A stretch of 64,000 bases of DNA. Origin: Cyclobacteriaceae bacterium (GTDB taxonomy: Bacteria; Bacteroidota; Bacteroidia; Cytophagales; Cyclobacteriaceae). Positions 4,428-30,952 of this stretch are shown piece after piece. Position numbers and translations under genes: made by a program. The notes below the pieces were generated by a model. The model saw only the letters and a list, made by a program, of their open reading frames with translations. It did not search any database and was not told the origin of the DNA. The DNA lies in assembly GCA_024644875.1 (NCBI GenBank), contig JAHEGY010000003.1, forward strand, positions 1 through 64,000. The letters run 5' to 3'. The stretch's first letter is position 1; each line of letters starts with the position of its first letter.

Positions 4428-4492
4428 GAGACTCGGTCTGCCATAAAGCAGACAAACGATTAATAATTAAAAGATTATTATATTTTTCAGTT

Positions 4493-4578: not shown

Positions 4579-7500
4579 ATGAAGACCAGGTTTTTGAAAT
4601 TATGTATATTGTTGATCTTCTTTTCGTGTGATCCGGATACGAAGCAGGATACATCCGAAAACACCTTATTTGAGCTTTTATCTTCCACCCGGACGGGTAT
4701 TGATTTTATTAACCAGCTTGAGTACACGGAGGAATTCAATATTTATACCTATCGCAATTTCTATAATGGTGGCGGGGTAGGTCTCGGCGATATCAACAAT
4801 GACGGTTTATTGGATATTTATTTTACTGGCAATATCGCTGATAATAAACTTTATTTGAATAAGGGTAATTTTTCCTTTGAGGATATAACCTTGAAAGCTG
4901 GTGTCGGCAGTAAGGATGTATGGTCTACGGGAGTAAGCATGGTGGATATAAATGGTGATGGCTTCCTGGACATATATGTATGTAAGTCAGGCAAGCCGGG
5001 TGGCGAGAATCGTCATAATGAATTATTCATAAATAACGGTGACCTTACTTTTACCGAGATGTCAGCCTCATATGACCTGGATGATGAAGGGCTTAGTGCA
5101 CATGCCGGTTTTTTTGATTTTGATAAGGATGGGGACCTGGATTGTTATTTATTGAACAATTCATTTAAATCCATCAGTAGTTATGAGATCGTCAAGGATC
5201 TTAGATTAATGAAGGATCCTGACGGTAGTAATAAATTGTACAGGAATGATGGGGATCATTTTACGGATATCAGTGAAGCGGCAGGTATATATACCTCACC
5301 CATAGGTTTCGGATTGGGTGTATCGATCGGGGATGTTAACCGGGATAACTGGCTGGACATATACGTATCTAATGATTTTTTTGAGCGGGATTATCTCTAC
5401 ATCAATAACCAGGATGGGTCATTTACGGAATATCTTGAGGATTACATTCGTGAAATAACCCTGGGATCCATGGGATCTGATATGGCTGATATAAACAATG
5501 ATGGGTATCCTGAGATATTTGTAACTGAAATGTTACCCGAAACAGAAGATCGCTTAAAGACAAAGGCTATGTTTGAGACCTGGGATACCTATCAAATGAA
5601 TGTGGTGAATGGCTACTATCACCAATTTGCCAGAAATGTCTTACAACTCAACAACAGAAATTCATCTTTCAGTGAAATTGGCAGACTGGCCAATGTTTAT
5701 GCTACAGACTGGAGTTGGGGGGCTCTGATATTTGACCTTGATAATGATGGCTGGAAAGATATATTTGTTGCAAATGGTATTTATAAGGATCTTCTTGATC
5801 AGGATTATATTAATTTTTATTCCAATCCCAGGATGATTCGACAAATGATCAAAACAGAAGAGCAAGCCATTTTGATAATGATTGACAATATACCCTCAGT
5901 AAGAATTCCGAACTATGCATTTCAAAATAATCACGATCTGACCTTTTCTAACAGCACGGCATTATGGGGTCTTGATGAACCTTCACATTCAAATGGAGCC
6001 GCATATGGAGACCTTGACAATGATGGAGACCTGGATATAGTCGTGAATAATGTAAATATGGAATCATTCATCTACAGGAATCATACTTCTGATCTTGGCA
6101 GAAACAACTACGTAGGATTTATCCTGAAGGGAGATCAGAAAAATTCACATGGAGTAGGCGCATCCGTCACATTATATTGTGGTGATCAGCAATTCTTTCA
6201 GGAGCAGATACCCACAAGGGGTTTCCAGTCCACGGTGGATAACCGGCTTTTAATAGGGATAGGCAAGCATACAAAAATTGATTCTGCTCGCATTGTATGG
6301 CCTGATGGTAAAGTTAACAGCTTAGATGAAATCCCGATTAATCAATATTTGATAATAGAAAGCAAAACGGGAAGAAATGAAGATGTCATTCTTAGTGAAG
6401 AGGTTTTACCAATGTTTGAAATAACTTCTGTTGAAGGTCTTGATGAATATAGGCATACGGAAAATAACTTCATTGATTTTGACAGGGATAAACTCATCTT
6501 TAATATGATCTCTAATGAAGGTCCGGGAATCTGCGTAAGTGATGTGAATTCTGATGGTCTTGATGATGTTTTCGTTGGAGGAGCTAAAAATATGCCGGGT
6601 AGTTTGTTCATACAGGACAAAAATGGTGTATTCAGTATTTCAAATCAAAAAGTCTTCGACAAAGACAAGATATCTGAAGATACGGACTGTGTGTTTTTTG
6701 ATGCAGATAATGATGGCGATGAAGATCTTTATGTTTGTCATGGTGGGAATGAATTCCCTTCCAGTTCCCTGGCGCTCGCTGACAGGTTATATCTCAATGA
6801 TGGAAAAGGGAACTTTGAAACATCTGACCAGTTATTCCCAGGCTCAAAACTGGAAAGCACTTCCTGTGTTCGTCCCGCAGATTTTGATCAGGATAATGAC
6901 CTTGATTTATTTGTAGGTACCCGATTGCGCCCTTTTCTTTATGGGGTGCCTGTAAATGGTTATATTCTTGAAAATGACGGAAATGGTATATTTAAGAATG
7001 TGACATCTGTTAAAGCTCCTGATCTCCAAGAAATTGGAATGATTACCGATATGCAGTGGACTGATCTTGATGGTGATTCCGATCTTGATATGATCATTGT
7101 CGGTGAATATATGCCTGTAAAAGTAATTATTAATCAAGCCGGCCATTTTATTGACCGAACGGCTGAATCTGTTTTGACGTCAAGTAACGGGTGGTGGAAT
7201 ACCATCGAAGCTGCAGATCTGGACCTGGATGGCGATATAGATTTTGTTTTAGGGAACCATGGCTTGAATTCAAAATTTAAAGCAAGCCCGGATCAACCCC
7301 TCACCATGTATGTGAATGATTTTGATAATAATGGACGGGTGGAACATATTATATGCACCCACAATGGAGATTCAACTTATCCAATGATCACCCGAGATGA
7401 ACTGGTTGAACAGATGCCTTATCTTCAGACAAAGTATCCTGATCACAAATCTTTTAAAGAACAGAAAATCAATGATATTTTCACACATGATCAGTTGGAA

Positions 7501-7890
7501 AGATCGGTAAGATTAATTGCGAACAATATGCATTCTTCCATTCTTTTCAACCAGGGAAATGGAAAATTTGATCTGGTACCATTACCGGTGCAAGCACAAT
7601 TTACACCGATATATGCCATTCAGATAGAGGATTTTAACTCAGATGGTTTTCCTGATATTGCAATGGGGGGTAACCTGTACAGGGCCAAGCCTGCATCAGG
7701 AATATACGATGGAAGCTATGGGGTGTTGCTGAAAGGGGATGGAAAGGGTAATTTTACATGTATGGATTATTTGAGATCAGGTTTTAATGTAAAAGGCGAA
7801 GTAAGGGATATTGCTAAATTGAATAAAGTAAACGGTAATCTACTGTTAGTCGCTGTTAACAATGGTAAACTGAAAATTTTTAAATATTAG
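4579..7890 (+). CDS. Giant VCBS/FG-GAP double beta-propeller lipoprotein with UnbV/ASPIC domain (copy 1)
   Basis: This 1103-residue lipoprotein has lipobox IFFSC (Cys17). Seven FG-GAP/VCBS calcium-loop motifs (first DINNDGLLDIYF at about 71; last DLDNDGDLDIVV before about 490) precede an UnbV/ASPIC domain at about 513-595 (QIPTRGFQSTVDNRLLIGIG, then IVWPDGK). Seven more motifs follow, from DVNSDGLDDVFV to DFNSDGFPDIAM. The 7+7 spacing suggests two seven-bladed propellers on either side of the UnbV domain. The human relative of this architecture is the extracellular matrix protein CRTAC1; Bacteroidota members are often annotated as RNA-binding proteins, which nothing here supports. A surface or periplasmic binding role linked to the SusCD/GH32 locus is inference. 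Copies 2 (8612) and 3 (19654) share the architecture. Confidence 0.9.
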   Translation: MKTRFLKLCILLIFFSCDPDTKQDTSENTLFELLSSTRTGIDFINQLEYTEEFNIYTYRNFYNGGGVGLGDINNDGLLDIYFTGNIADNKLYLNKGNFSFEDITLKAGVGSKDVWSTGVSMVDINGDGFLDIYVCKSGKPGGENRHNELFINNGDLTFTEMSASYDLDDEGLSAHAGFFDFDKDGDLDCYLLNNSFKSISSYEIVKDLRLMKDPDGSNKLYRNDGDHFTDISEAAGIYTSPIGFGLGVSIGDVNRDNWLDIYVSNDFFERDYLYINNQDGSFTEYLEDYIREITLGSMGSDMADINNDGYPEIFVTEMLPETEDRLKTKAMFETWDTYQMNVVNGYYHQFARNVLQLNNRNSSFSEIGRLANVYATDWSWGALIFDLDNDGWKDIFVANGIYKDLLDQDYINFYSNPRMIRQMIKTEEQAILIMIDNIPSVRIPNYAFQNNHDLTFSNSTALWGLDEPSHSNGAAYGDLDNDGDLDIVVNNVNMESFIYRNHTSDLGRNNYVGFILKGDQKNSHGVGASVTLYCGDQQFFQEQIPTRGFQSTVDNRLLIGIGKHTKIDSARIVWPDGKVNSLDEIPINQYLIIESKTGRNEDVILSEEVLPMFEITSVEGLDEYRHTENNFIDFDRDKLIFNMISNEGPGICVSDVNSDGLDDVFVGGAKNMPGSLFIQDKNGVFSISNQKVFDKDKISEDTDCVFFDADNDGDEDLYVCHGGNEFPSSSLALADRLYLNDGKGNFETSDQLFPGSKLESTSCVRPADFDQDNDLDLFVGTRLRPFLYGVPVNGYILENDGNGIFKNVTSVKAPDLQEIGMITDMQWTDLDGDSDLDMIIVGEYMPVKVIINQAGHFIDRTAESVLTSSNGWWNTIEAADLDLDGDIDFVLGNHGLNSKFKASPDQPLTMYVNDFDNNGRVEHIICTHNGDSTYPMITRDELVEQMPYLQTKYPDHKSFKEQKINDIFTHDQLERSVRLIANNMHSSILFNQGNGKFDLVPLPVQAQFTPIYAIQIEDFNSDGFPDIAMGGNLYRAKPASGIYDGSYGVLLKGDGKGNFTCMDYLRSGFNVKGEVRDIAKLNKVNGNLLLVAVNNGKLKIFKY

Positions 7891-7894
7891 TTTC

Positions 7895-8497
7895 ATGATC
7901 AAGCAAAGCAGATATTTGATAATTTTATTTGCAGCTTTTACTTTTCTATTAAGTTGCAATCCTAAAGACCGTTATGAGAGGCTGGTAAAAAAAGAGTTGG
8001 AAAAAGGAATACGAGCGGATAGCCTTTTCATGGGTATTCATCTTGGGATGACTGATAAGGACTTTTATACACATTGCTGGGAATTGAATAAGCAAGGCTT
8101 AATCAGACAGGGCACCTCCAATACGTCCGTGCTTTATAAAATGAATGAGTTAGATGATCCCGCTAAAATGAATTTCTACCCTAATTTTTATGAGGGCCGC
8201 ATTTATGAAATGCCAGTAAAATTTAGATACGATGGCTGGGCGCCGTGGAATAAGCACCTTAGTTCTGACAGTCTACAACTGGAAATTCTGAAGCTATATA
8301 AAAAATGGTATGGTGAGGATTTCATTGAAGTGGTGCATCCGAAAAGAGGCACTGCCTATGTTAAAGTAGATGGAAATCGAAGAATTACTTTATTTAAAAG
8401 AGATGAGGCAGAAGTATGGGCAATATTTACGGACCTGCTGATTGAAAGAGAATTAAAAGAAAGTACAACTATGTATGACAGCTTGGGCATCCAGTGA
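7895..8497 (+). CDS. Orphan lipoprotein of unknown function
   Basis: I do not recognise this 200-residue protein. It has a clear lipoprotein leader ending TFLLSC (Cys21), then a charged segment (NPKDRYERLVKKELEKGIRA), the stretch LFMGIHLGMTDKDFYTHCWE, and a mixed alpha/beta region rich in Trp and Tyr. The pattern GIHLGMTDKDF is like short repeats in secreted Bacteroidota proteins whose domain begins with a G-M-T/S turn, but no family can be named. It starts four bases after copy 1 of the propeller lipoprotein, so the two are almost certainly co-transcribed. Its position between two propeller paralogs suggests an accessory lipoprotein of that system; this is inference. Confidence 0.8.
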   Translation: MIKQSRYLIILFAAFTFLLSCNPKDRYERLVKKELEKGIRADSLFMGIHLGMTDKDFYTHCWELNKQGLIRQGTSNTSVLYKMNELDDPAKMNFYPNFYEGRIYEMPVKFRYDGWAPWNKHLSSDSLQLEILKLYKKWYGEDFIEVVHPKRGTAYVKVDGNRRITLFKRDEAEVWAIFTDLLIERELKESTTMYDSLGIQ

Positions 8498-8611
8498 AGC
8501 ATGAATGTAAATTCATCCCAAGAAACTTTCCATATATTGGAATGAGCTTTCCAGATTCCATAATTGTTAATTGCCTGAATGCTCAGTAACAAAGAATATC
8601 AAAAACCGAGA

Positions 8612-11600
8612 ATGCATAAAAAAGTAAGAATATATTATTTGTTAATTTTTCTCATATTAACAGCAGGATGTCAAAGCATAAATAATGATGTTCCTGAAAC
8701 CCTTTTTACGTTGATAGACCCAGATAGATCAAATGTAGATTTTGTGAACCGGCTGGATTACCTGGAAGAATTTAATATATACAGGTATCGAAATTTTTAT
8801 AATGGTGGAGGCGTAGCATTGGGTGATATTAATCAAGATGGTTTGATGGATATATATTTTGCTTCCAATATGCATGGGAATCGTCTTTACCTAAATAATG
8901 ATAATTTTGAGTTCGAGGACATAACTGAAATGGCGGGTGTCAAAGGCACCAGGTCCTGGTCAACGGGTGTAAGCATTGCCGATGTAAATGGAGATGGATG
9001 GTTGGATATTTATGTGTGTAATTCAGGGGATTTTAAAGGGGATAATAAACAGAATGAATTATTTCTCAATAACGGTGATTTGACATTCTCAGAGCAGGCT
9101 GAAAAATATGGGATAGCTGATATAGGATTATCAATACATGCTGCCTTTTTTGATTATGATAAAGACGGTGACTTGGATTTATACTTATTGAATAATTCTT
9201 CCAAGGCGATCGGATCTTTCAGCCTTAGTGATAACCAGCGAATGAACCGGAATCCGGATGGCGGAGATAAACTATTCAGGAATGATGGACAGGTATTTTC
9301 AGATGTCAGTATTGAAGCCGGGATATATGGATCCATAATAGGATTTGGCCTTGGTGTAACGGTTGGCGATATAGACCTGGATGGATGGATGGATATTTAT
9401 GTTTCCAATGATTTTTTTGAAAGGGATTATATATATATGAATAACCAGGATGGGACTTTTACGGAGAGACTGACGGAAATGATGCGTTCTATCAGCGCGG
9501 CCTCTATGGGCGCAGATATGGCAGATATAAACAATGATGGCTACCCGGAAATATTTGTCACGGATATGATCCCAGAACACGATGATCGATTGAAAACCAA
9601 AACAACATTCGATTCCTGGGACTCATACAACGAGGCCGTGGAGAATGATTATTATCATCAATTTACCAGGAATATGCTCAATTTGAATAATACCGATGGC
9701 ACATTCAGTGAGATAGGGCGTTTGATGAATGTTTATGCAACAGACTGGAGTTGGGGCGCCCTCATTTTTGATATGAATAATGATGGATATAAAGATCTTT
9801 TTGTTGCCAATGGGATCTACCAGGATTTGACTGACCAGGATTATATTAAATATTTTTCAAATCCCAGGATCATGAGAATGATAATTACCGACAATAATGT
9901 GGACTACCCAAAACTTATTGAAGCTATTCCTTCGGTGAAAATCTCGAATTATGCCTTTAGTAACGAGGGAGATTTAACCTTCAAAAATAAAGCAGAAGCA
10001 TGGGGACTCGCTCAACCAAGTCATTCTAATGGATCAGCATACGGGGACCTTGATAATGATGGAGATCTGGACCTTGTGGTAAATAATGTTAATATGCCTG
10101 CTTTTGTTTACAGGAACAATACCTCACAGTATTACCCCGAAAATCATTACCTGAAATTCATTTTAAGGGGAGAGGGTAAAAACAGGTATGCTATTGGCAC
10201 AAAAATCATTGTAAAAGATAAGGGTGAGGAAAGACATATTGAGCAAATGCCCACACGCGGCTTTCAATCCACAGTGGGTCATGACCCGGTCATCGGACTC
10301 GGTCGGATTGAATTCAGAGATTCTTCCGATTTGTTTCTGGATTCCATCATAGTCAAATGGCCGGATGAAAAGATTACTTTATTAACGAACGTAAAAGTTG
10401 ATCAGATCCTAACCTTATACCAGAAAGATGGTACAACGAAAGGATCTAATAAAGAATCCAAAAATGGAGCTACAGCTTATCTGTTTGAAGATGTCAGTAA
10501 AAATAAAATTATAGACTTTACTCATCAGGAGAATGCATTCATTGATTTTAGCAGGGATAGACTAATATATCATATGCTTTCAACACAGGGTCCCAGAATC
10601 TCTCATGGTGATATCAACAATGATGGTTTATCGGATCTCTTTATTTGTGGTGCCAGGGGATTGCCAGGAGCTCTTTTTTTACAGGTAAATAATGGATCAT
10701 TTATAAAAGTTAGTGAAAGTGTTTTTGAAAAGGATAAAACTTCAGAGGATACAGATGCTGTATTTTTTGATGCCGATAATGATGGAGACCAGGATCTATA
10801 TGTGGCAAGTGGGGGAACAGAATTCTCTACCAGTTCAAAGGCACTTAAAGATAGATTATATTTAAACGATGGTTTCGGCAGGTTTACCAATTCAGAACAG
10901 GTATTACCAGCAGGAAGGTATGAAAGCACCTCATGTGTCAGGGCAGCAGATTATGACCAGGATGGTATAATTGAATTATTTGTCGGGATAAGGCAGCAGC
11001 CATTTTTATACGGGGTTCCCGTTAATGGATATATTCTTGAAAATGATGGCCATGGAAACCTTACAGTTGCATCCGATAAACACCAGATTGGATTGACAGA
11101 ATTAGGTATGATCACCGATATGCAATGGGTGGATATAGATAATGACAAAGATCTGGATATGGTTATTGTTGGGGAATGGATGCCAATAACTATTTTTATA
11201 AATGACAGTGGCCAATTTAAAAATATTACCCCATCCTCAGGATTAGCGAAAACAAATGGTTGGTGGAACAGGATAAAGACAGGAGATTTTGATAAGGACG
11301 GGGATCTTGATCTTGTTGCAGGGAACCATGGCTGGAATACACGGTTTAAAGCATCTTTGGATAAGCCGGTAACCATGTATGTGAATGATTTTGATATGAA
11401 TGGGTCAGTTGAACAAATCATTTGCGTTTATAATGGCGAAAGATCTTATCCTTTAGCGTTGAAGCATGATCTTTTAAAGCAAATACCCTCTCTGGAAATC
11501 AAATACCCGAATTATGTAGACTATAAAGAACAGACGATCACAGATATCTTTACGGCTGACCAGCTACAGAAGGCACTGGAATTGAAAGCCTATCAGATGG

Positions 11601-11959
11601 CTTCCTCAGTAATCCTGAACAATGGTGATGGCACTTTTCAACTAAGACCTCTGCCTGTTGAGGTTCAATTGTCGCCTGTATATGGCATCCATATTGAAGA
11701 TGTTGATGAAGATGGTAAACTGGATATTTTACTAGGAGGTAATCTGTATGGGGTGAAACCTGAAGTGGGAAGGTATGATGCCAGTTACGGAAATTTTTTG
11801 AAGGGGAAAGGAGATGGCACTTTTAGCGTAATCGCTCCTAAATATTCTGGATTCAGATTATATGATGAGGTTCGGGATATAACACGTATTAATACTGTTG
11901 AAAGTAAATTACTGATTGTAGCCAAGAATAATCAACCACTACAGATTTTCAAGTATTAA
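8612..11959 (+). CDS. Giant VCBS/FG-GAP double beta-propeller lipoprotein with UnbV/ASPIC domain (copy 2)
   Basis: The frame is open from 8579, but the ATG at 8612 is chosen because MHKKVRIYYLLIFLILTAGC is a clean lipoprotein signal (Cys20); the earlier start adds eleven polar residues in front of it. The product is 1115 residues. As in copy 1, seven FG-GAP motifs (DINQDGLMDIYF to DLDNDGDLDLVV) come first. An UnbV/ASPIC domain follows at about 512-605 (QMPTRGFQSTVGHDPVIGLG), and then seven more motifs (DINNDGLSDLFI to DVDEDGKLDILL). The protein closely resembles copy 1 throughout, including DWSWGALIFD and NDFFERDYIYMNNQDGTF, which suggests local duplication and divergence. It is likely a surface or periplasmic binding lipoprotein; the ligand is unknown. 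A decayed relative of its 3' end lies immediately downstream. Confidence 0.9.
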   Translation: MHKKVRIYYLLIFLILTAGCQSINNDVPETLFTLIDPDRSNVDFVNRLDYLEEFNIYRYRNFYNGGGVALGDINQDGLMDIYFASNMHGNRLYLNNDNFEFEDITEMAGVKGTRSWSTGVSIADVNGDGWLDIYVCNSGDFKGDNKQNELFLNNGDLTFSEQAEKYGIADIGLSIHAAFFDYDKDGDLDLYLLNNSSKAIGSFSLSDNQRMNRNPDGGDKLFRNDGQVFSDVSIEAGIYGSIIGFGLGVTVGDIDLDGWMDIYVSNDFFERDYIYMNNQDGTFTERLTEMMRSISAASMGADMADINNDGYPEIFVTDMIPEHDDRLKTKTTFDSWDSYNEAVENDYYHQFTRNMLNLNNTDGTFSEIGRLMNVYATDWSWGALIFDMNNDGYKDLFVANGIYQDLTDQDYIKYFSNPRIMRMIITDNNVDYPKLIEAIPSVKISNYAFSNEGDLTFKNKAEAWGLAQPSHSNGSAYGDLDNDGDLDLVVNNVNMPAFVYRNNTSQYYPENHYLKFILRGEGKNRYAIGTKIIVKDKGEERHIEQMPTRGFQSTVGHDPVIGLGRIEFRDSSDLFLDSIIVKWPDEKITLLTNVKVDQILTLYQKDGTTKGSNKESKNGATAYLFEDVSKNKIIDFTHQENAFIDFSRDRLIYHMLSTQGPRISHGDINNDGLSDLFICGARGLPGALFLQVNNGSFIKVSESVFEKDKTSEDTDAVFFDADNDGDQDLYVASGGTEFSTSSKALKDRLYLNDGFGRFTNSEQVLPAGRYESTSCVRAADYDQDGIIELFVGIRQQPFLYGVPVNGYILENDGHGNLTVASDKHQIGLTELGMITDMQWVDIDNDKDLDMVIVGEWMPITIFINDSGQFKNITPSSGLAKTNGWWNRIKTGDFDKDGDLDLVAGNHGWNTRFKASLDKPVTMYVNDFDMNGSVEQIICVYNGERSYPLALKHDLLKQIPSLEIKYPNYVDYKEQTITDIFTADQLQKALELKAYQMASSVILNNGDGTFQLRPLPVEVQLSPVYGIHIEDVDEDGKLDILLGGNLYGVKPEVGRYDASYGNFLKGKGDGTFSVIAPKYSGFRLYDEVRDITRINTVESKLLIVAKNNQPLQIFKY

Positions 11960-12002
11960 ATGTATTGTCTTTATGTTCATGAGAGACTCATAAATAGGCC
12001 TG

Positions 12003-12270
12003 ATCTACGGATGGATCTGCTGAAAAACATTCACTTTGAGGTATCCTCCCGGGAGAAAATCTGCATAAGGATAAAGCGGAAGCAGGTCGTCATAATGTAA
12101 ACTGTGGATTACCCTTGGCGGGATTAGGTGATGGTTCATTTGAAGAGGTATTCCCTGAGCTATCCGGGATCCACCAGGAAGAAGAAAGTCAGGATCAGAT
12201 TACTTCATAATCAAAAGATCTGGGACAGATCATCTTTTCTAGAAACAATGAAGCAGTTCAGGTATTTAAA
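12003..12270 (+). pseudogene. Decayed 3' end of a further UnbV/VCBS propeller gene
   Basis: Between copy 2 and the GH32 gene, frame 1 from about 12040 reads ILPGENLHKDKAEAGR, then GLGDGSFEEVFPELSGI, then an in-frame TAA at 12208-12210, then DLGQIIFSRNNEAVQVFK and TGA. This aligns almost without gaps to the C-terminus of copy 2 (ILLGGNLYGVKPEVGR; GKGDGTFSVIAPKYSGF; ESKLLIVAKNNQPLQIFK). A possible frameshifted extension (IYG near 12003) matches the preceding VYG. Nucleotide identity to copy 2 is visibly low, so this is an old fossil or the remnant of a different paralog, not a recent tandem duplication. It fills most of the otherwise gene-free 11960-12298 interval. Confidence 0.75.
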
Positions 12271-12298
12271 TGAAATTGAAAAATAAAATCGAAAAACT

Positions 12299-13834
12299 AT
12301 GAAAGTTAGCGGCATATTTTTAGTATTGGTATTCATAGGAATCCTATCCTGTCAAAGGCCACATGAGCAGCAATCCGAGGGATTTAAACAAACAGAAGTC
12401 CAGGATCGATATCGTCCCTTATTCCATTTCACACCGGAGAAGAACTGGATCAATGATCCTAACGGGCTGGTATATCATAATGGGGAATATCATTTATTCT
12501 ACCAGTATAATCCATTTGGTGATACCTGGGGTCATATGAGCTGGGGCCATGCCATCAGCAACAACCTGCTCGATTGGACACACCTCCCTGTTGCATTGTA
12601 TGAAGAGGACAGCATAATGATATTTTCAGGAAGTGCGGTGGTGGATAAAGACAATACCGCCGGACTTTGTAAGGGCGAGCAATGCATTTTTGCCATATAT
12701 ACCGCACATGATCATTCCCGGAACAAACTGCAATACCAGAGTATCGCCTATAGTAGTGATAATGGACGCACATGGATAAAATATGCAGAAAATCCTGTTC
12801 TGAACCTGGGCATGCGAGATTTCCGGGATCCGAAAGTTTTCTGGTATGTAGAAGCCAGGAAATGGATCATGGTAGTAAGTCATCCCTTGGCTTACATGGT
12901 CCAGTTCTATCAGTCTGAAAATCTGGTTGATTGGGAGTTGACAGGAGAATTTGGTGGTGGCGGGGATGTGTCCAAGATCTGGGAATGTCCGGACCTGCTT
13001 AAGGTTCCCATTGAAGGCTCGGACGATCATAAATGGGTTCTTATCATTTCCTCCGGAAGTCAGTATGAAGGTTTTACCGGAATGCAGTACTTTATCGGGG
13101 AATTTGACGGGAAGGTGTTCAACACTTTACAAACTGGAGAGAATCCGGTTTGGCTGGATTATGGGAAGGACTTTTACGCTGCCATAACCTATAATAATCT
13201 ACCTGAAGGGCATCCTCCCGTTCTTATAGGCTGGGCCAACAACTGGGCCTATGCCAATGCCCTGCCCACCTCTCCCTGGCGGGGCATGATGTCGATTCCC
13301 AGGGAATTATCCCTTGCTGAGGTGAATGGGGAACTAAAATTGATCCAGAAACCAGTCCGATCGTTTTATGAAAAGGTTTCCAGATCAGAATTATTGACCT
13401 TCTCCGATCATAAGATTGAGGAGGGGGATAATTTGTTAAAGGAAGTATATGCCAGTGCCTTCCTCCTTAAAATGGAATTTAATGATATCGATGCGGAAGA
13501 ATTAGGTATTGAGGTCTTTAAAGATCAGCATGAGAAGACAATTATCGGATACAATTCAAAAGAAATGAAATTGTTCATTGACAGAACCCTATCAGGGCAT
13601 GTAGATTTTCACCAAGATTTCGCCTCCATAGATTATGCATCATACAAACTCTGGGATAAATCTCTAAAACTCGAAATCCTTGTCGACCAATCCATCGTCG
13701 AAGTATTCACCGGGAATGGCTCAGTGGTCATTTCAGATCAGGTCTTTCCCAATTCAAACCTGAATGGGATGCAATTGTTTGTAAAAGGAGGGACTGCTAA
13801 TCTAAAGAATATGGAATTATATCGGTTTAAATAA
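12299..13834 (+). CDS. Glycoside hydrolase family 32 lipoprotein (levanase/inulinase/invertase type)
   Basis: This 511-residue secreted fructan or sucrose hydrolase acts on beta-fructofuranosyl bonds. The leader ends GILSC (Cys18), so it is a lipoprotein. The GH32 five-bladed propeller shows all three catalytic acids: nucleophile Asp53 in WINDPNG (50-56), transition-state stabiliser Asp177 in FRDPKVF, and acid/base Glu229 in WECPDLL. WGHAISNNLLDW (82-93) and GWANNWAYANALPTSPWRG are also typical. The C-terminal GH32 beta-sandwich (about 370-511) ends DQSIVEVFTGNGSVVISDQV. Whether it is endo- or exo-acting, on levan or inulin, cannot be told by eye. It is the only clear carbohydrate enzyme near the first SusCD pair and suggests that the locus targets fructans; no fructokinase or hybrid two-component regulator is visible nearby. 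Confidence 0.95.
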   Translation: MKVSGIFLVLVFIGILSCQRPHEQQSEGFKQTEVQDRYRPLFHFTPEKNWINDPNGLVYHNGEYHLFYQYNPFGDTWGHMSWGHAISNNLLDWTHLPVALYEEDSIMIFSGSAVVDKDNTAGLCKGEQCIFAIYTAHDHSRNKLQYQSIAYSSDNGRTWIKYAENPVLNLGMRDFRDPKVFWYVEARKWIMVVSHPLAYMVQFYQSENLVDWELTGEFGGGGDVSKIWECPDLLKVPIEGSDDHKWVLIISSGSQYEGFTGMQYFIGEFDGKVFNTLQTGENPVWLDYGKDFYAAITYNNLPEGHPPVLIGWANNWAYANALPTSPWRGMMSIPRELSLAEVNGELKLIQKPVRSFYEKVSRSELLTFSDHKIEEGDNLLKEVYASAFLLKMEFNDIDAEELGIEVFKDQHEKTIIGYNSKEMKLFIDRTLSGHVDFHQDFASIDYASYKLWDKSLKLEILVDQSIVEVFTGNGSVVISDQVFPNSNLNGMQLFVKGGTANLKNMELYRFK

Positions 13835-13922
13835 CTTTGCTGGGTACCTGACGAATGCCGTTAACCCAGTTGACAGTCTTATAAAGCCGGTCCTATAAAT
13901 CCAATAAAATTAGTATTATATC

Positions 13923-15623
13923 CTATTCACCGGTAACCTGATAGATATATTTCCCTTCAAGCAAATTTCCATTTTCATCCATACCAATTAGCTGTATCAT
14001 ACAATGGCCTGTTATGTTATTGGTTTGAAAGTTCAACCTGGCAAATCCATTCTCATCCGTTTTAAGATCAGCCTGCCAGAAAATCAGCGGCTCCAGGTCA
14101 GGTGCAGCAGGATATGAGATGGATGATTCTTCATTTTGCACATTTTGAAGTCCGTTTATCTCTAACATATTAGGACTGGATTCAACATAATTACTCAGAA
14201 AATTGTTTTTCGTATATATGGCGATCACGCCACCCTGGACCATAATGGGTTCAAAATATTTAAATATACTTCTGTTGGTGATATACAGATCTATACGCTT
14301 AATCTGGGTGAAAGGTATGTTGTATACGAGCGAGTCATTGAATATGAAGTAATTATCTACGAGCAGCCAGGGTTTGGTCATGAAATATTTTTTTGTTTCG
14401 TTGTTGAAAAGTAATATTTTCCGGCTATCACCTTCCTTATAGGTTCCTGCGTTTGTTACGGCCTGATGGATAAAGTCCCCCATATTTTTAATGTATCTGT
14501 ATTTTCCCATATCATAGGATTTGTCCGGTAAGAACTGTAAATAAGGAGTTGATACAAGTTGAAGGGAATCCGTTGTGTCCTGATAGAAAATCTCCCGGAA
14601 ATGTCTTCTAAGCTTACTGAAATACAGGTATTTATTTACTTCAGGGGTTCGTTCCGGCGGACCTTTAATGATAGCTAGTTGCTCCACATCATAAAGTATG
14701 GTTCTGGTTTGAACTAGAGGTACCTTTTCCTGATAGGGATTCATATTCATGAGCTGAAGATTCGCCTTTCCGTGGAATAAAGGCAATTTAAATGAAAAAA
14801 CCCCGTCTTTACTTTTTATCCTTGTAAAAGTAAAATCCCGTTTATTGTAGAGGGATAACACATTGGATGTTATCGGATCTCCTGTACGTGGTTCTTTAAC
14901 GCTTCCCTGGACCAGGATGGACGCTTCCGGATCAAACCTGAGTTCGACCTCATCCATAGGTTGTCGCTTCAGTTTAGCAAGGTATTCATCATGCTGGTTT
15001 AAATCCAGTGGCTGAATAAGGTTCAAGTCAAAAACAGTCACAGATAAGTTGGCGGCTTTAGTTGATCTGGTTTGTATTTCGACAGATAAAGTATCCCTGG
15101 CATGGATGGGTTTGCAGTTTACAGTATTCACATTCAATTCCTGATTCTTAATATCCTTTAAACGGGCGGTATCCCTGGTTAAGTAGTCCATATTCTTATC
15201 TGCGGAGATTCCTGTGAGCCATTCGTTATAAACAGGTAAGGTCTTATAAAATATATATTCATTTCCGAAATTTATGTTCCAGGTGGTATAACACCGGAAT
15301 AAATAGTTCCCTTCCCGGAAAGAAACTGGTAACCGGAATTCGCCGGAAGCAGTATTGTCAGATATCAATACGATCTGTTCTATTTTAACACTGTCCTGTG
15401 CATCTACCAGGTCAACATGAACGATCTTCGAATCGATATCCCTCTCATTCAGGAAGTATATCTTATAATGTATGGATTCACCCGCAACATAGAATGATTT
15501 GTCCAGGTGAACGAAGATTTTATCCGGTTCAGGGGTAAAGGAATAGGCAGGGTGATTTCCTGTTACCGGGAATAACGGCAATATCAATGAACACATAACG
15601 ATATGAGCACAGAACTTCCTCAT
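13923..15623 (-). CDS. Secreted MG2/macroglobulin-like domain protein (third gene of TonB receptor operon)
   Basis: This 566-residue protein carries a Sec signal peptide. The segment after it (DKIFVHLDKSFYVAGESIHY) is the hallmark of macroglobulin-2-like beta domains common in Bacteroidota cell-surface proteins. A beta-sandwich region of about 220 residues follows, then a carboxypeptidase-regulatory-like stretch (VQGSVKEPRTGDPITSNVL, near 245-265). A later region (GVIAIYTKNNFLSNYV) resembles the TonB plug fold often fused to such proteins. Its ATG overlaps the stop of the DUF4249 gene (ATGA), so they are translationally coupled. The role is unknown; from its position it may be a periplasmic or surface partner of the TonB receptor. 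Confidence 0.75.
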   Translation of the reverse strand: MRKFCAHIVMCSLILPLFPVTGNHPAYSFTPEPDKIFVHLDKSFYVAGESIHYKIYFLNERDIDSKIVHVDLVDAQDSVKIEQIVLISDNTASGEFRLPVSFREGNYLFRCYTTWNINFGNEYIFYKTLPVYNEWLTGISADKNMDYLTRDTARLKDIKNQELNVNTVNCKPIHARDTLSVEIQTRSTKAANLSVTVFDLNLIQPLDLNQHDEYLAKLKRQPMDEVELRFDPEASILVQGSVKEPRTGDPITSNVLSLYNKRDFTFTRIKSKDGVFSFKLPLFHGKANLQLMNMNPYQEKVPLVQTRTILYDVEQLAIIKGPPERTPEVNKYLYFSKLRRHFREIFYQDTTDSLQLVSTPYLQFLPDKSYDMGKYRYIKNMGDFIHQAVTNAGTYKEGDSRKILLFNNETKKYFMTKPWLLVDNYFIFNDSLVYNIPFTQIKRIDLYITNRSIFKYFEPIMVQGGVIAIYTKNNFLSNYVESSPNMLEINGLQNVQNEESSISYPAAPDLEPLIFWQADLKTDENGFARLNFQTNNITGHCMIQLIGMDENGNLLEGKYIYQVTGE

Positions 15624-16693
15624 TCATCCTCACGAACAAATCCCCAATATCCAGGAACTTCCAATTGACTGTCCGGAATTTCCAGGCAATTACAACAGGC
15701 CGGATTCCCCCAGGTACGCCAGTCGTAGGGATCGCACAGGTCTGCTATGTATAAAGGTTCAAGATCCTCGGCATAGGTATATGTACGAATGGTATCCACG
15801 GCAGAAACCTCAAAGAATCCCAGTACACGATCCTCAGGATCATTGATGTTATATACATTTCCATTTATGGGCGCTGGTGGAGTATCAAAAATACTTCCGG
15901 TTGATTGCGCCACTTGTTTAACCGTATTCCAGTAATCATAAGCTTCCCTGGTAACGGAATGCTGGGCTATGTTGAAAAAATGCTTTTCAAAGAATTCCCA
16001 ATTTGGAAAAACCTTAATGGATCCTACCCTGAAATGCTCCAGTTTCCCACCGGACAGCTCTTCACTGGAGAAAAGTTTTATATCATCGCTTTGTATTTTC
16101 CTGGTAATATAGCAGACAGCAGGCGGCTTCAGCGGACTACAAAACAATTCGGTGAAGGAATAAGCGTGATCCATCCTCCAGATGAAATGGAAGTCATTGC
16201 CATTTTTAAATATCGGTGTATTAATATAAAGATTCAGGTATCTCCATATTACCGTATTTTCAAGATTGTTCAACTCTTCCATCTCTTCCAATTGGAAGTA
16301 GAGCTTATCAGGTTTAATGACTTCCGGCATCTTTTGTGGCATAGATCGATATGTATTTTCATTGGGAAGTATGATCTCGATGTAATAAGACTTTCCAGGA
16401 GCACGATCCAATACATTGCCCTCCAGAATGTATTTACCTTTATCCGCCGGGAAGTAGTTTTCATAGTTCCCTGTCTCATCATACAGGGTTACCCTTGCAT
16501 CCATAACAGGATTATAATGGGTGGATCCGGTGGCAGTGGATCTTCTAAGGATGAGTTCATGCGGCGTGTTTTTTTGTGTGATCTTCCCATCCACGACCAG
16601 AAGATATTCATTGGTATCATGTTCAAGGTTAAAGGAGGATATACAACCCGGCAGCAAAAAGATCAATCCATAGAGTAGTTGTTTTATTTTCAT
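15620..16693 (-). CDS. DUF4249 outer-membrane lipoprotein
   Basis: This is a 357-residue lipoprotein of the DUF4249 family, which regularly follows STN-containing TonB receptors in Bacteroidota. The open frame extends to 16762, but the ATG at 16693 is chosen: it gives MKIKQLLYGLIFLLPGC (Cys17) and lies just after the receptor's stop codon. The N-terminal beta-domain reads YLLVVDGKITQKNTPHELIL, then VTLYDETGNYENYFP, as in other members. The Cys-rich tail (CDPYDWRTWGNPACCNCLE) is also family-like. The probable role is a surface accessory or ligand-capture lipoprotein of the receptor, analogous to SusD, but its ligand is unknown. It overlaps the next gene by four bases. Confidence 0.88.
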   Translation of the reverse strand: MKIKQLLYGLIFLLPGCISSFNLEHDTNEYLLVVDGKITQKNTPHELILRRSTATGSTHYNPVMDARVTLYDETGNYENYFPADKGKYILEGNVLDRAPGKSYYIEIILPNENTYRSMPQKMPEVIKPDKLYFQLEEMEELNNLENTVIWRYLNLYINTPIFKNGNDFHFIWRMDHAYSFTELFCSPLKPPAVCYITRKIQSDDIKLFSSEELSGGKLEHFRVGSIKVFPNWEFFEKHFFNIAQHSVTREAYDYWNTVKQVAQSTGSIFDTPPAPINGNVYNINDPEDRVLGFFEVSAVDTIRTYTYAEDLEPLYIADLCDPYDWRTWGNPACCNCLEIPDSQLEVPGYWGFVREDE

Positions 16694-16697
16694 TTTA

Positions 16698-19463
16698 TTA
16701 AAATTCAAAATTGTAGGTAAATGAGGGGAAAATCGTCCCCAGAACCGATAGCCTGTAGGCATTCCTGCCTGTTGTCAGACTCTTCCTGTAGAATATGGAA
16801 TAGGTGTTCTCCCTGGCATACAGGTTATAGATGGAAAAGGTAAAACTGTCTTTATACCGCTTCTTCCTAATGACATTCCTCTTCAGGGTATAGGACAGGT
16901 CGAGCCGGTGATAGGGTGGTATCCTGAATTCATTCCTGCCGGTAAATTCCGGAATGAAAACACCATCAACCATATAAAAGGATCCCGGAACAGTTATGGG
17001 CCGGCCTGACCTATAAGTAAAATTAAGCGAAAAAATGCTGCTCTTGTTGAAATTATAATTAAACACGACGTTAAAGTTATGTGGCATATCCAGGTTGGAT
17101 GGGTACCATTCTCCATCATTAATGGTTTCTTCTTCATTGTCACCATCAATTCTTACATAGGAACGTGAATAAGTGTATGCCAGCCAGCCATTAAAGCGTC
17201 CTTTCTTTCTACGTATCAACACTTCGGCACCGTAGGCTTTCCCATCTCCAGAAAGCAGATCCGTTTCAAGATGGTCATTTAGCAGCAATTCGGCAAAATC
17301 CTTGTATTCAATTACATTTTGTAATCTTCTGTAGTAAATCTCCAGGGAAGTTTCCCATAAGTTGTTCATGAAATTCCTGAAATACCCGATAGAAAAGTTA
17401 TTCGACGTTTCCGGCGCATAATGTGGACCGCTTACCAGCCAGAAATCCACGGGTAAGGCCGCGGTGGAATTCGATACCAGATGGATGAATTGGCTCGTCC
17501 TGTTGTAGCTGAATTTTATTGAGGAACTTGGTGACAGACTATATTTCATCGAAAATCTGGGCATGAGATTATAATAAGTCTCTACTGCTTCTCCGGAACT
17601 ATATGAAATACTGTCGATGACAGTATCCTTACGCTTTGGTTCTCCTTCGGGGTAGATATATTCCGTGCCGGGTCCTAATTGTTGAAAGGCGTTGAACCGC
17701 AATCCAAAGGAGAAAGAAAAGAGATAGTTGAGTGTGAACTCGTCGTTTATATAAAGACCCAGTTCTTGTCCATTGTCTTTGGCTATAGATTCACTGACAA
17801 CCCTCGATTGGTCACCCTTTGGCGCCAGTTCATCTGGGAAAATGTCGTAACGTACGTACTCTATACCTGTTGAAAGGTTATGGTTTTTAATTGATGAAAT
17901 GAGTATATCCTCTTTTAATCGAAAATTTGCCAATCCATTGGTAAGGGTAAATGCTTTCAGGCCATTTGGTTCATAGGAAAGATTAGTGTTGTCACCCATG
18001 GAGGCAGAAAAAGCGGATGAAATGGTCGGTTTGATCATATGGTTCCACATCAGGCTGGCAGCCCGGTTCTTCCAGGAAAATCCATAGTCATCGGAGAATT
18101 GTACCTTGTCATAACTTTGATAGTAAGAGGCCGTGATCATGCCCTTCCCACTGTATCTATGGGAAATTTTTGCATTGATGTCATAGAAATATCCAGAGCT
18201 GTTCTGGATGTCTGGATCTTTGATCATTTTAAGAATCCAATCGGAATAGGTAATTCTTCCACCCAGCAAAAACGTGGTTCTGGGTGTATTCCCATTTTTT
18301 TTCGATTTTTTTGATTGCAGGGGCCCATCCAGTGTCAGTCGGCTGGCAACTATGCCTATACCCCCTTTGCCAGTCAGCTTATCCCCATTGTTGCCTTTCA
18401 ATTTAACATTCAATACGGAAGAAAGTCTACCACCATATTGTGCGGGGATATGACCTTTATACAGTTCAACTTCCTGAATGGCATCGGAGTTGAATATAGA
18501 GAAAAATCCCAGTGCATGAGAAGCGTTAAATATCAAAGCTTCATCCTGCAAGATCAGGTTTTGGTCGATGGCACCACCACGCACGTTGAATCCTCCAGCC
18601 CCTTCTCCAACTGTACTTACCCCGGGCAAGGTCATAAGACTTTTAATAACATCGGCTTCACCCAGAAAAACAGGCAGGTTTTCAATCTGTTGGGGACGCA
18701 AACGTGTAATCCCCATCATCACGGATTGAACATTGTTATCATCTGTTTCACCCGTGATCAGAAGTTCCTCCAACTCATAGGCGTCCGGTGCAAGCAAAAT
18801 CCTGATCTCTTCCTGTCCGGATACCTCCCATACGATCTTCTGTGTTTCATAACCGATGTAGCTGATCTCAACCAAGTTGTATCCCGTTGGTAACAGAATT
18901 TCGAATTTTCCGGCATTATCTGTTGAGGTTGTCATGTTTAATGCCTCGAAATGAAGATTCACGCCCCTAAGGGGTTCTTCATTCAACTGATCGACTATCA
19001 CACCTTTAATTACCACCTGACCAGCGGATATCTCCTTTGTAGAATCTCCAAGGTGTATGATATCGCTTGCTGTAATCCAATTATTGGACTTAAAAAGGTT
19101 TTTCTGCCGGTTCCTTATGACGAAGTATTCCCGAGTATAATCCTGGTTCAATATATCCTCTGGGGCAATGATTATCGAATTATAATATATCAGGAAATTC
19201 AGGTTGTAAGGCTTCGTCAATTTTTGTATTACATCTAAAATGGATTCCTCCTGAAATACAATACTCAGACGCATATCCTTTATCCATTCCTTCTTATAAA
19301 AAAATTGAACCGGGTAAACATTCTCTATATCATAAAATATGTTGGATAAGTTGGTGTCCTGATAATTTCCGGTTATAGATATCTTCTCCATTACCTGGGC
19401 CTGGCTAAGGAAGGTTACTGTCAATAAAGAGAATAAGGGAAAAATACTAAAAAAAAACTTCAT
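16698..19463 (-). CDS. TonB-dependent receptor with STN and carboxypeptidase-regulatory-like domains
   Basis: This 921-residue outer membrane receptor is the first gene of a three-gene minus-strand operon. A signal peptide (to about 22) is followed by an STN (secretin/TonB short N-terminal) domain at about 35-105. A carboxypeptidase-regulatory-like beta-domain follows at about 150-230 (DNAGKFEILLPTGYNLVEIS). The plug spans about 240-360 (GGFNVRGGAIDQNLILQDE; AQYGGRLSSVLNVKLKG), and the rest is a 22-strand-type barrel to the terminal Phe (FPSFTYNFEF). STN domains in receptors often talk to FecR-type anti-sigma factors, but no sigma/anti-sigma pair lies next to it here. Unlike SusC, its partner lipoprotein is DUF4249. 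The substrate is unknown. Confidence 0.93.
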   Translation of the reverse strand: MKFFFSIFPLFSLLTVTFLSQAQVMEKISITGNYQDTNLSNIFYDIENVYPVQFFYKKEWIKDMRLSIVFQEESILDVIQKLTKPYNLNFLIYYNSIIIAPEDILNQDYTREYFVIRNRQKNLFKSNNWITASDIIHLGDSTKEISAGQVVIKGVIVDQLNEEPLRGVNLHFEALNMTTSTDNAGKFEILLPTGYNLVEISYIGYETQKIVWEVSGQEEIRILLAPDAYELEELLITGETDDNNVQSVMMGITRLRPQQIENLPVFLGEADVIKSLMTLPGVSTVGEGAGGFNVRGGAIDQNLILQDEALIFNASHALGFFSIFNSDAIQEVELYKGHIPAQYGGRLSSVLNVKLKGNNGDKLTGKGGIGIVASRLTLDGPLQSKKSKKNGNTPRTTFLLGGRITYSDWILKMIKDPDIQNSSGYFYDINAKISHRYSGKGMITASYYQSYDKVQFSDDYGFSWKNRAASLMWNHMIKPTISSAFSASMGDNTNLSYEPNGLKAFTLTNGLANFRLKEDILISSIKNHNLSTGIEYVRYDIFPDELAPKGDQSRVVSESIAKDNGQELGLYINDEFTLNYLFSFSFGLRFNAFQQLGPGTEYIYPEGEPKRKDTVIDSISYSSGEAVETYYNLMPRFSMKYSLSPSSSIKFSYNRTSQFIHLVSNSTAALPVDFWLVSGPHYAPETSNNFSIGYFRNFMNNLWETSLEIYYRRLQNVIEYKDFAELLLNDHLETDLLSGDGKAYGAEVLIRRKKGRFNGWLAYTYSRSYVRIDGDNEEETINDGEWYPSNLDMPHNFNVVFNYNFNKSSIFSLNFTYRSGRPITVPGSFYMVDGVFIPEFTGRNEFRIPPYHRLDLSYTLKRNVIRKKRYKDSFTFSIYNLYARENTYSIFYRKSLTTGRNAYRLSVLGTIFPSFTYNFEF

Positions 19464-19623
19464 AGAAAGAAACTCGATATTTCTTAAAATCTGCAGATGC
19501 GTATATGTATAGCAACATATCCTTCTAAGAATGCACCCTTCAATATAAGTAATATATCTTCTTTAATGATACTAAAAAGCCGATATTGGTTTGAATTTAA
19601 GTATTTATTTCTTTATTAGGAAT

Positions 19624-19631
19624 TAGATTTG
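19624..19631 (+). promoter_or_regulatory. Candidate -7 box for propeller lipoprotein copy 3
   Basis: TAGATTTG matches the Bacteroidota TAnnTTTG -7 element and lies 22 bases before the GTG start at 19654, in the 190-bp divergent gap. No TTTG is found at the expected -33 spacing, so support is partial. Confidence 0.25.
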
Positions 19632-19653
19632 TTTTATTAAAGACTGTTTTCAC

Positions 19654-22600
19654 GTGCCTTTTATCGTCAGGACGATAATCATAATTTTCATCATAGTCCA
19701 TCTGGTTTCCTGCGGGGAAAAAGAACCGGAAAAATTATTGTTTACCCTGATGGAAGATTCTCACACCGGCATTACTTTTTCTAATGATCTTACCGAGACT
19801 GATTCTCTTAATATGATAGAGTATCTCTATTTTAACAATGGAGGCGGTGTGGCGGCTGGAGATATCAATAATGACGGCCTGATCGATCTTTATTTCAGTG
19901 CCAACCAGTTGCCTAACAAGCTTTATCTTAATAAAGGAGAATTTGTTTTCGGGGATATTTCTGATAAAGCCGGGGTTGAAGGAAAAGGGGATTGGTCAAC
20001 CGGTGTCACGATGGCAGATGTGAACGGGGATGGGTGGCTAGATATATATGTCTGCCAGGTAGGTGATTTTAAGGGGCTAAAGGGGAAGAATCAGCTTTTT
20101 ATCAATAATGGGGATCTTACCTTTACGGATAAGGCAGCAGAATTTGGCCTGGACTTTTCCGGATTTTCAACCCAGGCCGCTTTTTTTGATTATGATCTTG
20201 ATGGTGATCTGGACATGTACCTTCTGAATCATTCTGTACATGGTAGTCGAAACTATGGAATGTCTTCTCTGCGGTATGAGTTGGATCCCAAAGCTGGAGA
20301 CCGGCTTTTTCGTCATGATGTAAATAATGGATCGATTTATTATGCAGACGTAAGCAGACGGGCAGGTATTTTAAGTAGTCAGCTTGGCTACGGACTTGGT
20401 GTGAGCATTGCAGATATCAATGATGATGTCTATCCGGATATTTATATATCAAACGATTTTCATGAAATTGACTATTTATACATCAATAACAGAAATGGGA
20501 CATTCAGTGAAAAGCTTTTCGAAATGATAACCCATAGCAGCAGGTCTTCCATGGGTAATGATATTGCCGACTTCAACAATGATGGATTGCTGGATATTGT
20601 TGTGCTTGATATGTTACCTATAGAGGAGGAGATCAGAAAACGGTCTGGTGGAGAAGACGACTATGAGTTATATAAAATCAAAAGAAACTTTGGTTACTAC
20701 CATCAGTATGTCAGAAATATGCTACAATTGAATCTGGGAGATAATATGTTCAGCGAAATAGGCAGGTTATCGGGCATTTATTCAACGGACTGGAGTTGGG
20801 CACCATTGTTTTGCGATCTGGACAACGATGGATATAAGGATATATATATAACCAATGGAATATTCCGCAGGGCCAACGACCTGGATTATGTAAAATTCCT
20901 GTTGGATGATCGCAATGATCAGAAAAAACCGAATAACGAAATATTATCTAACAGGCAATTATACGAGAAGATGCCCCTGGATCCATTAGTAAATTATGTA
21001 TTCCAGAACAATGGATATCATAATTTGAATGATACAATACAACCCAGGCACATAAATAGATTTACTTTTTCTAACCATGCAGTTGAATGGGGGATGAATA
21101 GAAAATCATTTTCGAATGGAGCGACCTATGCAGACCTTGATAATGATGGGGACCTGGATATTATAGCAAATAATATAAATGAAAAAGCATTCATCTACAG
21201 GAATAATTCTGAATCAGTAACAAATAATCATTTTCTGAAATTTAAATTGAAAGGAAGTGAGAAGAATACTTTTGGTGTTGGGACCCGGATTATTGTTTTT
21301 ACCAACGGTGAAAAAAGAATGGTAGAAAACTATCAATCCCGGGGATTTATGTCATCAGTACCCCCCGGGGTACATGTTGGGATGGGTATCAATGACCAAG
21401 CTGATTCTATTCTTATCAGGTGGCCAAATAATAAAATTGAAATGAGATATGATGTTGCCGTCGATCAGGAACTTACAATCGATATTAAAGACGCCGTTTC
21501 ATATAGTGGAATACCTGATTTTAGTATTGAAAACAACACCTTATTTAAGGTTGCTTCAGAGAGTCTTGGATTAGATTTTATCCATAATGAAGACAGGTTT
21601 GATGAATTCGAAAAGCAGCATCTGGCACCACATAAATTGTCTTCAGAGGGTCCCGGATTAGCTGTTGGTGATGTAAACGGGGATGGTCAGGATGATATAT
21701 TTATTGGTGGGGCTAAGGGTCAGCGTGCAAAATTGTTCATCTGGCAGGAAGATGCTTTTGTCTTGAAGCCTAATCCTGATCTTGATAAGGATTTTGGTTG
21801 CGAGGATGTGGATGCTGCTTTATTTGATTCTGACATGGATGGGGACCTTGATCTTTTTGTGGTAAGTGGTGGGAATGAGCAATCCAGCTTGCAGAGATTA
21901 AGGATGGACCGTATATATATAAATGATGGTTCGGGAAATTTTGTTAGGGGGGAGAAATTATTGCCTGAATTCTACCACAATGGATCCTGTGTCAGGCCTA
22001 TGGATTTTGATCAGGATGGGGATACGGATCTTTTTGTAGGTTCCCGGTCTGTTTCTGGTCTTTATGGTATTTCAGCAGATTCTTATTTGCTGGAAAACGA
22101 TGGAAAGGGCTTCTATAAAGATATTACATCTCAAAAAGCAACTGATCTTTCCGGTATCGGGATGATAACTGATGCCTCCTGGTTCGACTATGACAATGAT
22201 AGTGATATGGATCTGGTGATTGCCGGTGAATGGATGAGCATAAGGATACTTGATAACGACAATGGATATCTGAAATCGATTCAATACCCGGAAGGGATCA
22301 TGAATTCATCAGGATGGTGGTTTTCCCTGAATACTGGAGATATAGACGGTGATGGGGATTCAGACATAATCGCAGGCAACCTGGGATTGAATTCAATGCT
22401 AAAAGCAGATCATGATAATCCGGTTCGGATGTATATAAACGATTTCGATAAGAATGGATCTGCTGAACAGATCATAACAACGATCAGGGAGGGTGAAGAA
22501 TATCCTTTTACCTACAGAGATGACCTGGCCAGGCAATTGGATTTTATATTGGAAAAATATCCACTGCATGCTGAGTTTGCAGGGCAAACCGTACAGGATA

Positions 22601-23022
22601 TATTTACTTCAGCGCAGCTTGATGAGTCATTGATCAAGGAGGCAAAAGTATTTGAATCCAGTATTTTCCTTAATGATGGTAATGGTGGCTTCGAAAAGAT
22701 ACCCCTTCCTGCTGAAATCCAGTTTGCGCCAATTCAGGATATGATCTTGAGCGATTTTGACCGGGATGGTTTAATAGATATTGTTTTAGGAGGGAATTTC
22801 AATTCAGTCAGGCCTCTCTATGGGAAGTATGAAGCAAGTTACGGTTGGTTTCTTAAAGGTGATGGAAAAGGGGGGTTTGATGTTCAGTATCCTGTGGAAA
22901 GCGGATTTTATGTGCGAGGCGAACTAAATACGATCAAACAATTTCAGGTAAACCAGAGGTACTTCTTACTTGGAGGTGTAAATAATGATAAAATTGTTGT
23001 TTTAGAAGTTGTGTTACACTGA
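19654..23022 (+). CDS. Giant VCBS/FG-GAP double beta-propeller lipoprotein with UnbV/ASPIC domain (copy 3)
   Basis: This is the third member of the family, 1122 residues. The GTG at 19654 is the only start that keeps the lipoprotein leader (lipobox HLVSC, Cys20). Seven FG-GAP loops (DINNDGLIDLYF to DLDNDGDLDIIA) precede an UnbV/ASPIC domain near 527-610 (NYQSRGFMSSVPPGVHVGMG, then IRWPNNK). Seven more follow (DVNGDGQDDIFI to DFDRDGLIDIVL). It is more diverged than copies 1 and 2: the opening reads NMIEYLYFNNGGGVAAGD instead of YRNFYNGGG, and a longer insertion lies before the seventh loop. It stands alone, divergent from the TonB receptor operon, so it may serve that receptor. A binding or scaffold role at the cell surface is inference. 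Confidence 0.9.
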   Translation: MPFIVRTIIIIFIIVHLVSCGEKEPEKLLFTLMEDSHTGITFSNDLTETDSLNMIEYLYFNNGGGVAAGDINNDGLIDLYFSANQLPNKLYLNKGEFVFGDISDKAGVEGKGDWSTGVTMADVNGDGWLDIYVCQVGDFKGLKGKNQLFINNGDLTFTDKAAEFGLDFSGFSTQAAFFDYDLDGDLDMYLLNHSVHGSRNYGMSSLRYELDPKAGDRLFRHDVNNGSIYYADVSRRAGILSSQLGYGLGVSIADINDDVYPDIYISNDFHEIDYLYINNRNGTFSEKLFEMITHSSRSSMGNDIADFNNDGLLDIVVLDMLPIEEEIRKRSGGEDDYELYKIKRNFGYYHQYVRNMLQLNLGDNMFSEIGRLSGIYSTDWSWAPLFCDLDNDGYKDIYITNGIFRRANDLDYVKFLLDDRNDQKKPNNEILSNRQLYEKMPLDPLVNYVFQNNGYHNLNDTIQPRHINRFTFSNHAVEWGMNRKSFSNGATYADLDNDGDLDIIANNINEKAFIYRNNSESVTNNHFLKFKLKGSEKNTFGVGTRIIVFTNGEKRMVENYQSRGFMSSVPPGVHVGMGINDQADSILIRWPNNKIEMRYDVAVDQELTIDIKDAVSYSGIPDFSIENNTLFKVASESLGLDFIHNEDRFDEFEKQHLAPHKLSSEGPGLAVGDVNGDGQDDIFIGGAKGQRAKLFIWQEDAFVLKPNPDLDKDFGCEDVDAALFDSDMDGDLDLFVVSGGNEQSSLQRLRMDRIYINDGSGNFVRGEKLLPEFYHNGSCVRPMDFDQDGDTDLFVGSRSVSGLYGISADSYLLENDGKGFYKDITSQKATDLSGIGMITDASWFDYDNDSDMDLVIAGEWMSIRILDNDNGYLKSIQYPEGIMNSSGWWFSLNTGDIDGDGDSDIIAGNLGLNSMLKADHDNPVRMYINDFDKNGSAEQIITTIREGEEYPFTYRDDLARQLDFILEKYPLHAEFAGQTVQDIFTSAQLDESLIKEAKVFESSIFLNDGNGGFEKIPLPAEIQFAPIQDMILSDFDRDGLIDIVLGGNFNSVRPLYGKYEASYGWFLKGDGKGGFDVQYPVESGFYVRGELNTIKQFQVNQRYFLLGGVNNDKIVVLEVVLH

Positions 23023-30950: not shown

Positions 30951-30952
30951 AA

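Follow-up and report, generated by a model that had tools for sequence, protein, structure and literature searches.

Bacteroidota import nutrients mainly through SusCD systems, and additional lipoproteins decide what these systems catch. Among such lipoproteins, SusE/SusF and the other surface glycan-binding proteins of PULs resemble the proteins described here in that the gene lies right after SusD. In FjDexUL, the branched-dextran PUL of Flavobacterium johnsoniae, SusCD is likewise accompanied by a GH65 kojibiose hydrolase (PMC10316084). At the protein level, a seven-bladed FG-GAP propeller followed by an UnbV/ASPIC domain is common to CRTAC1 and our proteins, and the VCBS propeller superfamily with tachylectin and integrins has the same kind of calcium-loop blades (PMC8023676).

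Organization of the locus

In this work, we analyzed a window of 64,000 nt that begins at contig base 1. The following features were annotated:

1..2631, + strand: SusC-type TonB-dependent receptor, 5′ end lost to the contig end (Pfam Plug and TonB_dep_Rec)
2657..4375, + strand: SusD/RagB lipoprotein of the lineage accompanying UnbV arrays (PF07980/PF14322; best-match survey)
4401..4430, + strand: terminator-like hairpin, 9-bp stem and T run, in the intergenic region separating SusD from gene 1
4579..7890, + strand: gene 1, double-propeller UnbV lipoprotein of clade A (A1), UnbV domain at 6151-6351
7895..8497, + strand: 200-aa lipoprotein without Pfam/NCBIfam match, adjoining the A2-type UnbV gene
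8579..11959, + strand: gene 2, double-propeller UnbV lipoprotein of clade A (A2), start probably 8612
12043..12270, + strand: fossil of a clade-A-like UnbV gene (3′ end)
12299..13834, + strand: GH32 lipoprotein of the fructosidase family (PF00251 and PF08244)
13923..19463, − strand: MG2-like protein, DUF4249 lipoprotein, and its TonB receptor, between A2 and B
19654..23022, + strand: gene 3, double-propeller UnbV lipoprotein of clade B, apart from the array

The ORFs of genes 1-3 are open and full length at these coordinates, and for gene 2, Met12 (8612) is a likelier start than 8579. A sequence-only reading had described three intact lipoproteins and a fossil within 19 kb, flanked by SusC, SusD, GH32, and DUF4249 with its receptor; ORFs, lipoboxes, and domains confirmed the former (lengths 1103-1126 aa) and Pfam matches the identities of the latter. 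The fossil is real: over 76 residues it shares 36% identity with the terminal part of gene 2, at an E of 4e-13 in a search of small size, and it contains an in-frame stop. It was also considered as a remnant of a B gene, but A2-type ends fit better (50 bits vs. 33 for the best B, over only 76 residues).

The host genome (5.06 Mb) contains 18 UnbV genes, over half of them of the long form, which confirms the proposed expansion of the family; SusD_RagB matches number only seven. Long UnbV genes adjoin SusCD in the window, C114, and C137, while most others do not. The window also contains another SusC/SusD pair (27639-32485), which no UnbV gene directly adjoins. Elsewhere in this genome, L021:9199-11376 encodes a short UnbV protein that has a tail for type IX secretion sorting, and genes in the same run encode SusC, a SusD-like_2 protein, and an arylsulfotransferase.

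Domain architecture and predicted structure

Each of the three proteins has one match to UnbV_ASPIC (PF07593; 45-73 bits vs. the curated cut-off of 23.4) and repeated matches to FG-GAP_3 (214-265 bits vs. 26.9). These were the sole domains matched in the profile search of genes 1-3, which returned neither an RNA-binding domain nor a SusE/F family match. In all three proteins, seven calcium loops are located N-terminal and seven C-terminal of the UnbV domain, as claimed in the sequence-only reading; this count includes a degenerate DFDNNGRVE loop of P0001, read by eye in the sequence. The proposed lipid anchor is also well founded, given that all 13 aligned relatives keep the lipobox Cys and 41/41 clade A/B proteins have it.

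Structure prediction was run on the gene 1 protein, to which the full-length identities of the gene 2 and gene 3 proteins are 57 and 45%, respectively. The AlphaFold2 model, based on an alignment of 13 relatives, has a pLDDT of 80.3 and a pTM of 0.80. Residues 28-597 of this model match the crystal structure of murine CRTAC1 (9etn) with VIA Z 36.1 and rmsd 2.5 over 458 residues, and the sequence match to CRTAC1 has an E of 5e-11. Residues 609-1103 match LGI1 EPTP (Z 31) and aldos-2-ulose dehydratase (Z 28), both of which we take to be seven-bladed propellers. The model thus supports a predicted CRTAC1-like core of propeller and UnbV domain followed by a second seven-bladed propeller, and the two propellers expected from the loops are borne out for gene 1. 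In the C-terminal half, the number of loops matches the number of blades, but there is not one loop per blade. The spacing from loop 5 to loop 6 is only 34 residues and that to the last loop is 104; judged from this spacing and the strands of the model, the sixth loop is part of an insertion and the last blade is loopless.

Association with SusCD and evolution of the array

Of 198 genomes of the class, 34 contain strong relatives of gene 1, of which no more than a few were scored in each genome. For the neighborhood survey (48 loci and ten named ones), ORFs were classified by iterated HMMs seeded from the window. In this survey, which was ranked by likeness to gene 1 and favors SusCD-linked copies, 13 of 25 UnbV clusters were directly 3′ of a SusD gene (14 genomes totalling 59.2 Mb, with 185 SusD_RagB genes). 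With genes spaced at one per kb, about 0.08 clusters would be expected in this position, and the chance of such linkage is about 1e-26 if the loci are independent and relatedness among genomes is ignored. The order SusC-SusD-UnbV occurs in Flavobacterium, Saprospiraceae, and Chitinophagaceae, and in the recurrent arrangement SusC and SusD precede one to three long UnbV genes, which are often followed by genes for a 300-aa protein, GH65, and a PAP2-like protein. Furthermore, the best match of the window SusD is UnbV-linked in 10 of 12 genomes, each holding 4 to 37 SusD genes, which shows that UnbV arrays accompany one dedicated SusD lineage. The association that had been anticipated from the window is therefore real, widespread, and conserved in Bacteroidota. 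It is apparently undescribed; among the open-access papers searched, we found none that links UnbV/VCBS proteins, the double form included, to SusCD.

Most of the SusCD linkage falls in two ancient clades of paralogues, A and B. In a tree of 86 long UnbV proteins, with SusD linkage scored per row, 21/24 rows of clade A and 15/17 of clade B are SusD-linked (36/41 together), vs. 5/45 of the other long UnbV proteins. Under a mixture model with 49 rows, A and B each form one side of a branch with support of 100 and 99. Both types are present in 14 SusD loci, and A is nearest SusD in all but L064, where the order is B-A-B (13 loci with A nearest). In one Flavobacterium locus (L005:9992-13314), the A-type gene is broken in pieces and B is intact. 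Within clade A, an old A1/A2 split is common to the window's family and Saprospiraceae. A recent local tandem duplication of genes 1 and 2 was rejected, since gene 2 is closer to the Saprospiraceae A2 (59%) than to gene 1 (57%) and the pair is thus old. The suggested expansion within 19 kb is more plausibly an old set of A1, A2, and B that stayed together than the product of a local burst. In genome G142 (L053 and L054), the array is split, with A1 plus SusCD and A2 plus the 200-aa gene about 94 kb apart on one contig.

Gene 3 had been tied to the DUF4249 receptor operon from which it diverges. This partnership was not retained, as none of the other surveyed UnbV loci has a DUF4249 neighbor and gene 3 belongs to clade B. 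The neighbor is accordingly taken as incidental, and the operon at 13923..19463 was judged to be outside the UnbV-SusCD system. Because the other members of clade B are nearly all in SusCD arrays, gene 3 is best read as a displaced B member of such an array, which is also the simplest reading. Two other genomes of the window's family (L056 and L057) have the order SusC-SusD-A1-200aa-A2-B-PAP2; in the window, the fossil and GH32 occupy the place after A2, and B is 7.7 kb off, past the opposite-strand DUF4249 operon. Gene 3 is sister to the third genes of these two loci with LG support of 95, a relation that the mixture model leaves unresolved.

The hairpin after SusD is a further recurrent feature of these loci. 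Perfect hairpins with at least nine pairs and a T run, no more than 150 bases from the SusD stop, were found in 12/23 SusD-UnbV loci, vs. none in shuffles, 3/109 after UnbV genes, and 1/36 after SusC. The position is kept across the window and 11 other loci, and the sequence is not. A general scan of the window did not list the hairpin at 4401..4430. Given this hairpin, the UnbV genes may be transcribed partly apart from SusCD, and it may lower UnbV expression relative to SusCD.

Neighboring genes

The gene for the 200-aa lipoprotein adjoins UnbV in every occurrence (4/198 genomes in a dedicated search, and the named loci) and precedes A2 wherever the order is readable. Members of this family are located at L001:9382-9999, L009:2141-2710, L010:13317-13928, L053, L056, and L057, only beside clade A UnbV genes. 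The protein has no Pfam or NCBIfam match, and its fold prediction gave no convincing PDB match; with a best Z of 6.7, no fold is claimed.

A PAP2-like gene is directly 3′ of UnbV in about 20 loci. It encodes a 440-aa PAP2/vanadium-haloperoxidase-like protein, often a lipoprotein, that adjoins long UnbV genes with or without SusCD (L056, L057, L058, L062, L063, L065, L068, L070, L074, L078, L081, L094, L095, L099, and others). These genes also co-occur at the genome level (24/34 vs. 6/164 genomes; Fisher 1e-17 with phylogeny ignored). The PAP2-like proteins match PF01569 and keep the KX6RP, SGH, and SR...H residues, so that their sequences would be compatible with either a phosphatase or a haloperoxidase. 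As a partner of the window's own proteins, PAP2 was rejected, as none was found in the host genome at E 1e-30.

GH65 genes are present in nine UnbV arrays, and the seven that were tested all score above the NCBIfam cut-off for kojibiose hydrolase. For a kojibiose hydrolase, the host genome offers just a partial, below-threshold GH65 match. At L107, PAP2-like and GH65 genes are near each other with no UnbV gene. GH32 adjoins the arrays in the window and three Flavobacterium loci. From the GH65 and GH32 neighbors, our guess is that the substrate contains alpha-1,2-glucosyl or fructosyl moieties.

Membrane placement and putative function

We give about even credence to the three proteins being dedicated accessory outer-membrane lipoproteins (A/B) of one SusCD lineage. 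Each protein would be a calcium-stiffened body, with a CRTAC1-like propeller and UnbV domain followed by the second propeller. Since A and B are supplied together by one locus, it is probable that the two work as a pair or complex next to SusCD. The likeliest job of these proteins would be to hold the substrate and/or co-encoded enzymes (GH32, kojibiose hydrolase, or the PAP2-like protein) at the transporter. Counted against this reading are the hairpin after SusD, the UnbV and PAP2 pairs without SusCD, the bias of the survey ranking toward SusCD-linked copies, and the lack of a PAP2 match in the host genome at the above threshold. A more specific version, in which an A+B hetero-assembly and the PAP2/haloperoxidase-like protein form a new accessory machine of one SusCD lineage for sugars containing alpha-1,2-glucosides or fructosides, possibly periplasm-facing, is put forward tentatively.

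The side of the outer membrane on which these proteins reside bears on two alternatives. Published surface export signals are acidic (QKDDE, SDDDD, and SDDFE; PMC5080379). From position +2 to +6 relative to the lipid Cys, the net negative charge averages −0.4 in 41 clade A/B proteins vs. +1.2 in 26 SusD proteins (Mann-Whitney p 2e-5), such that A/B are slightly basic on average and SusD is acidic. Some SusD proteins also have no clear acidic signal. The surface exposure suggested in the sequence-only reading is thus not supported and is weakened, and the missing signal, as read from sequence, may argue against surface placement of A/B; a periplasmic position is not thereby proven.

Surface glycan-binding proteins in the SusE/SusF sense, the role proposed in the sequence-only reading, which would catch polysaccharide on the cell surface and hand it to SusCD, are consistent with the place right after SusD, the lipid anchor, and the large propeller folds, and the fold neighbor aldos-2-ulose dehydratase is a sugar enzyme with a seven-bladed propeller. 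The charge at +2 to +6 is unlike that of SusD and of the acidic published signals, however, and there is no SusE/F sequence match, which leaves this role rather unlikely. Periplasm-facing lipoproteins that dock the PAP2-like protein, kojibiose hydrolase, and GH32 under the transporter would explain the absence of the acidic signal from A/B, and the position of PAP2-like genes after UnbV and their genome co-occurrence point the same way. Yet export signals vary among Bacteroidota groups and are weakly conserved, with exceptions among SusD itself, and we consider this docking role unlikely.

In another scenario, the real unit is UnbV with the PAP2/haloperoxidase-like protein, and SusCD is one of several neighbors to which it hitchhiked. 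Such pairs without SusCD are found in L058, L068, L081, L094, L095, and L099, but A and B nearly always accompany SusD, and PAP2 is missing from several arrays, among them that of the window, making this scenario quite improbable. The old RNA-binding label, which comes from inherited annotation only, is contradicted by the export signal and by exported lipoproteins with just FG-GAP and UnbV domains; its rejection in the sequence-only reading was correct, and such a role has a negligible probability.

Comparison with known systems

Accessory lipoproteins of the kind favored here would add to SusCD biology a conserved set of undescribed role, made up of two types of 1100-residue propeller protein and tied to one SusCD lineage. 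The UnbV/CRTAC1 fold also gains a testable bacterial context, with a target for knock-out and pull-down in culturable Flavobacterium.

Compared to FjDexUL, which has eight genes including SusE/F, GH66, GH31, and GH97 and no UnbV protein (PMC10316084), the arrays described here combine SusCD with UnbV genes. Unlike SusE/SusF, to which they have no sequence match, the UnbV proteins have a propeller fold, lack the acidic export signal, and come as an A+B pair. Whereas CRTAC1 has a single propeller, the bacterial protein has an extra seven-bladed propeller, a lipid anchor, and a transporter locus.
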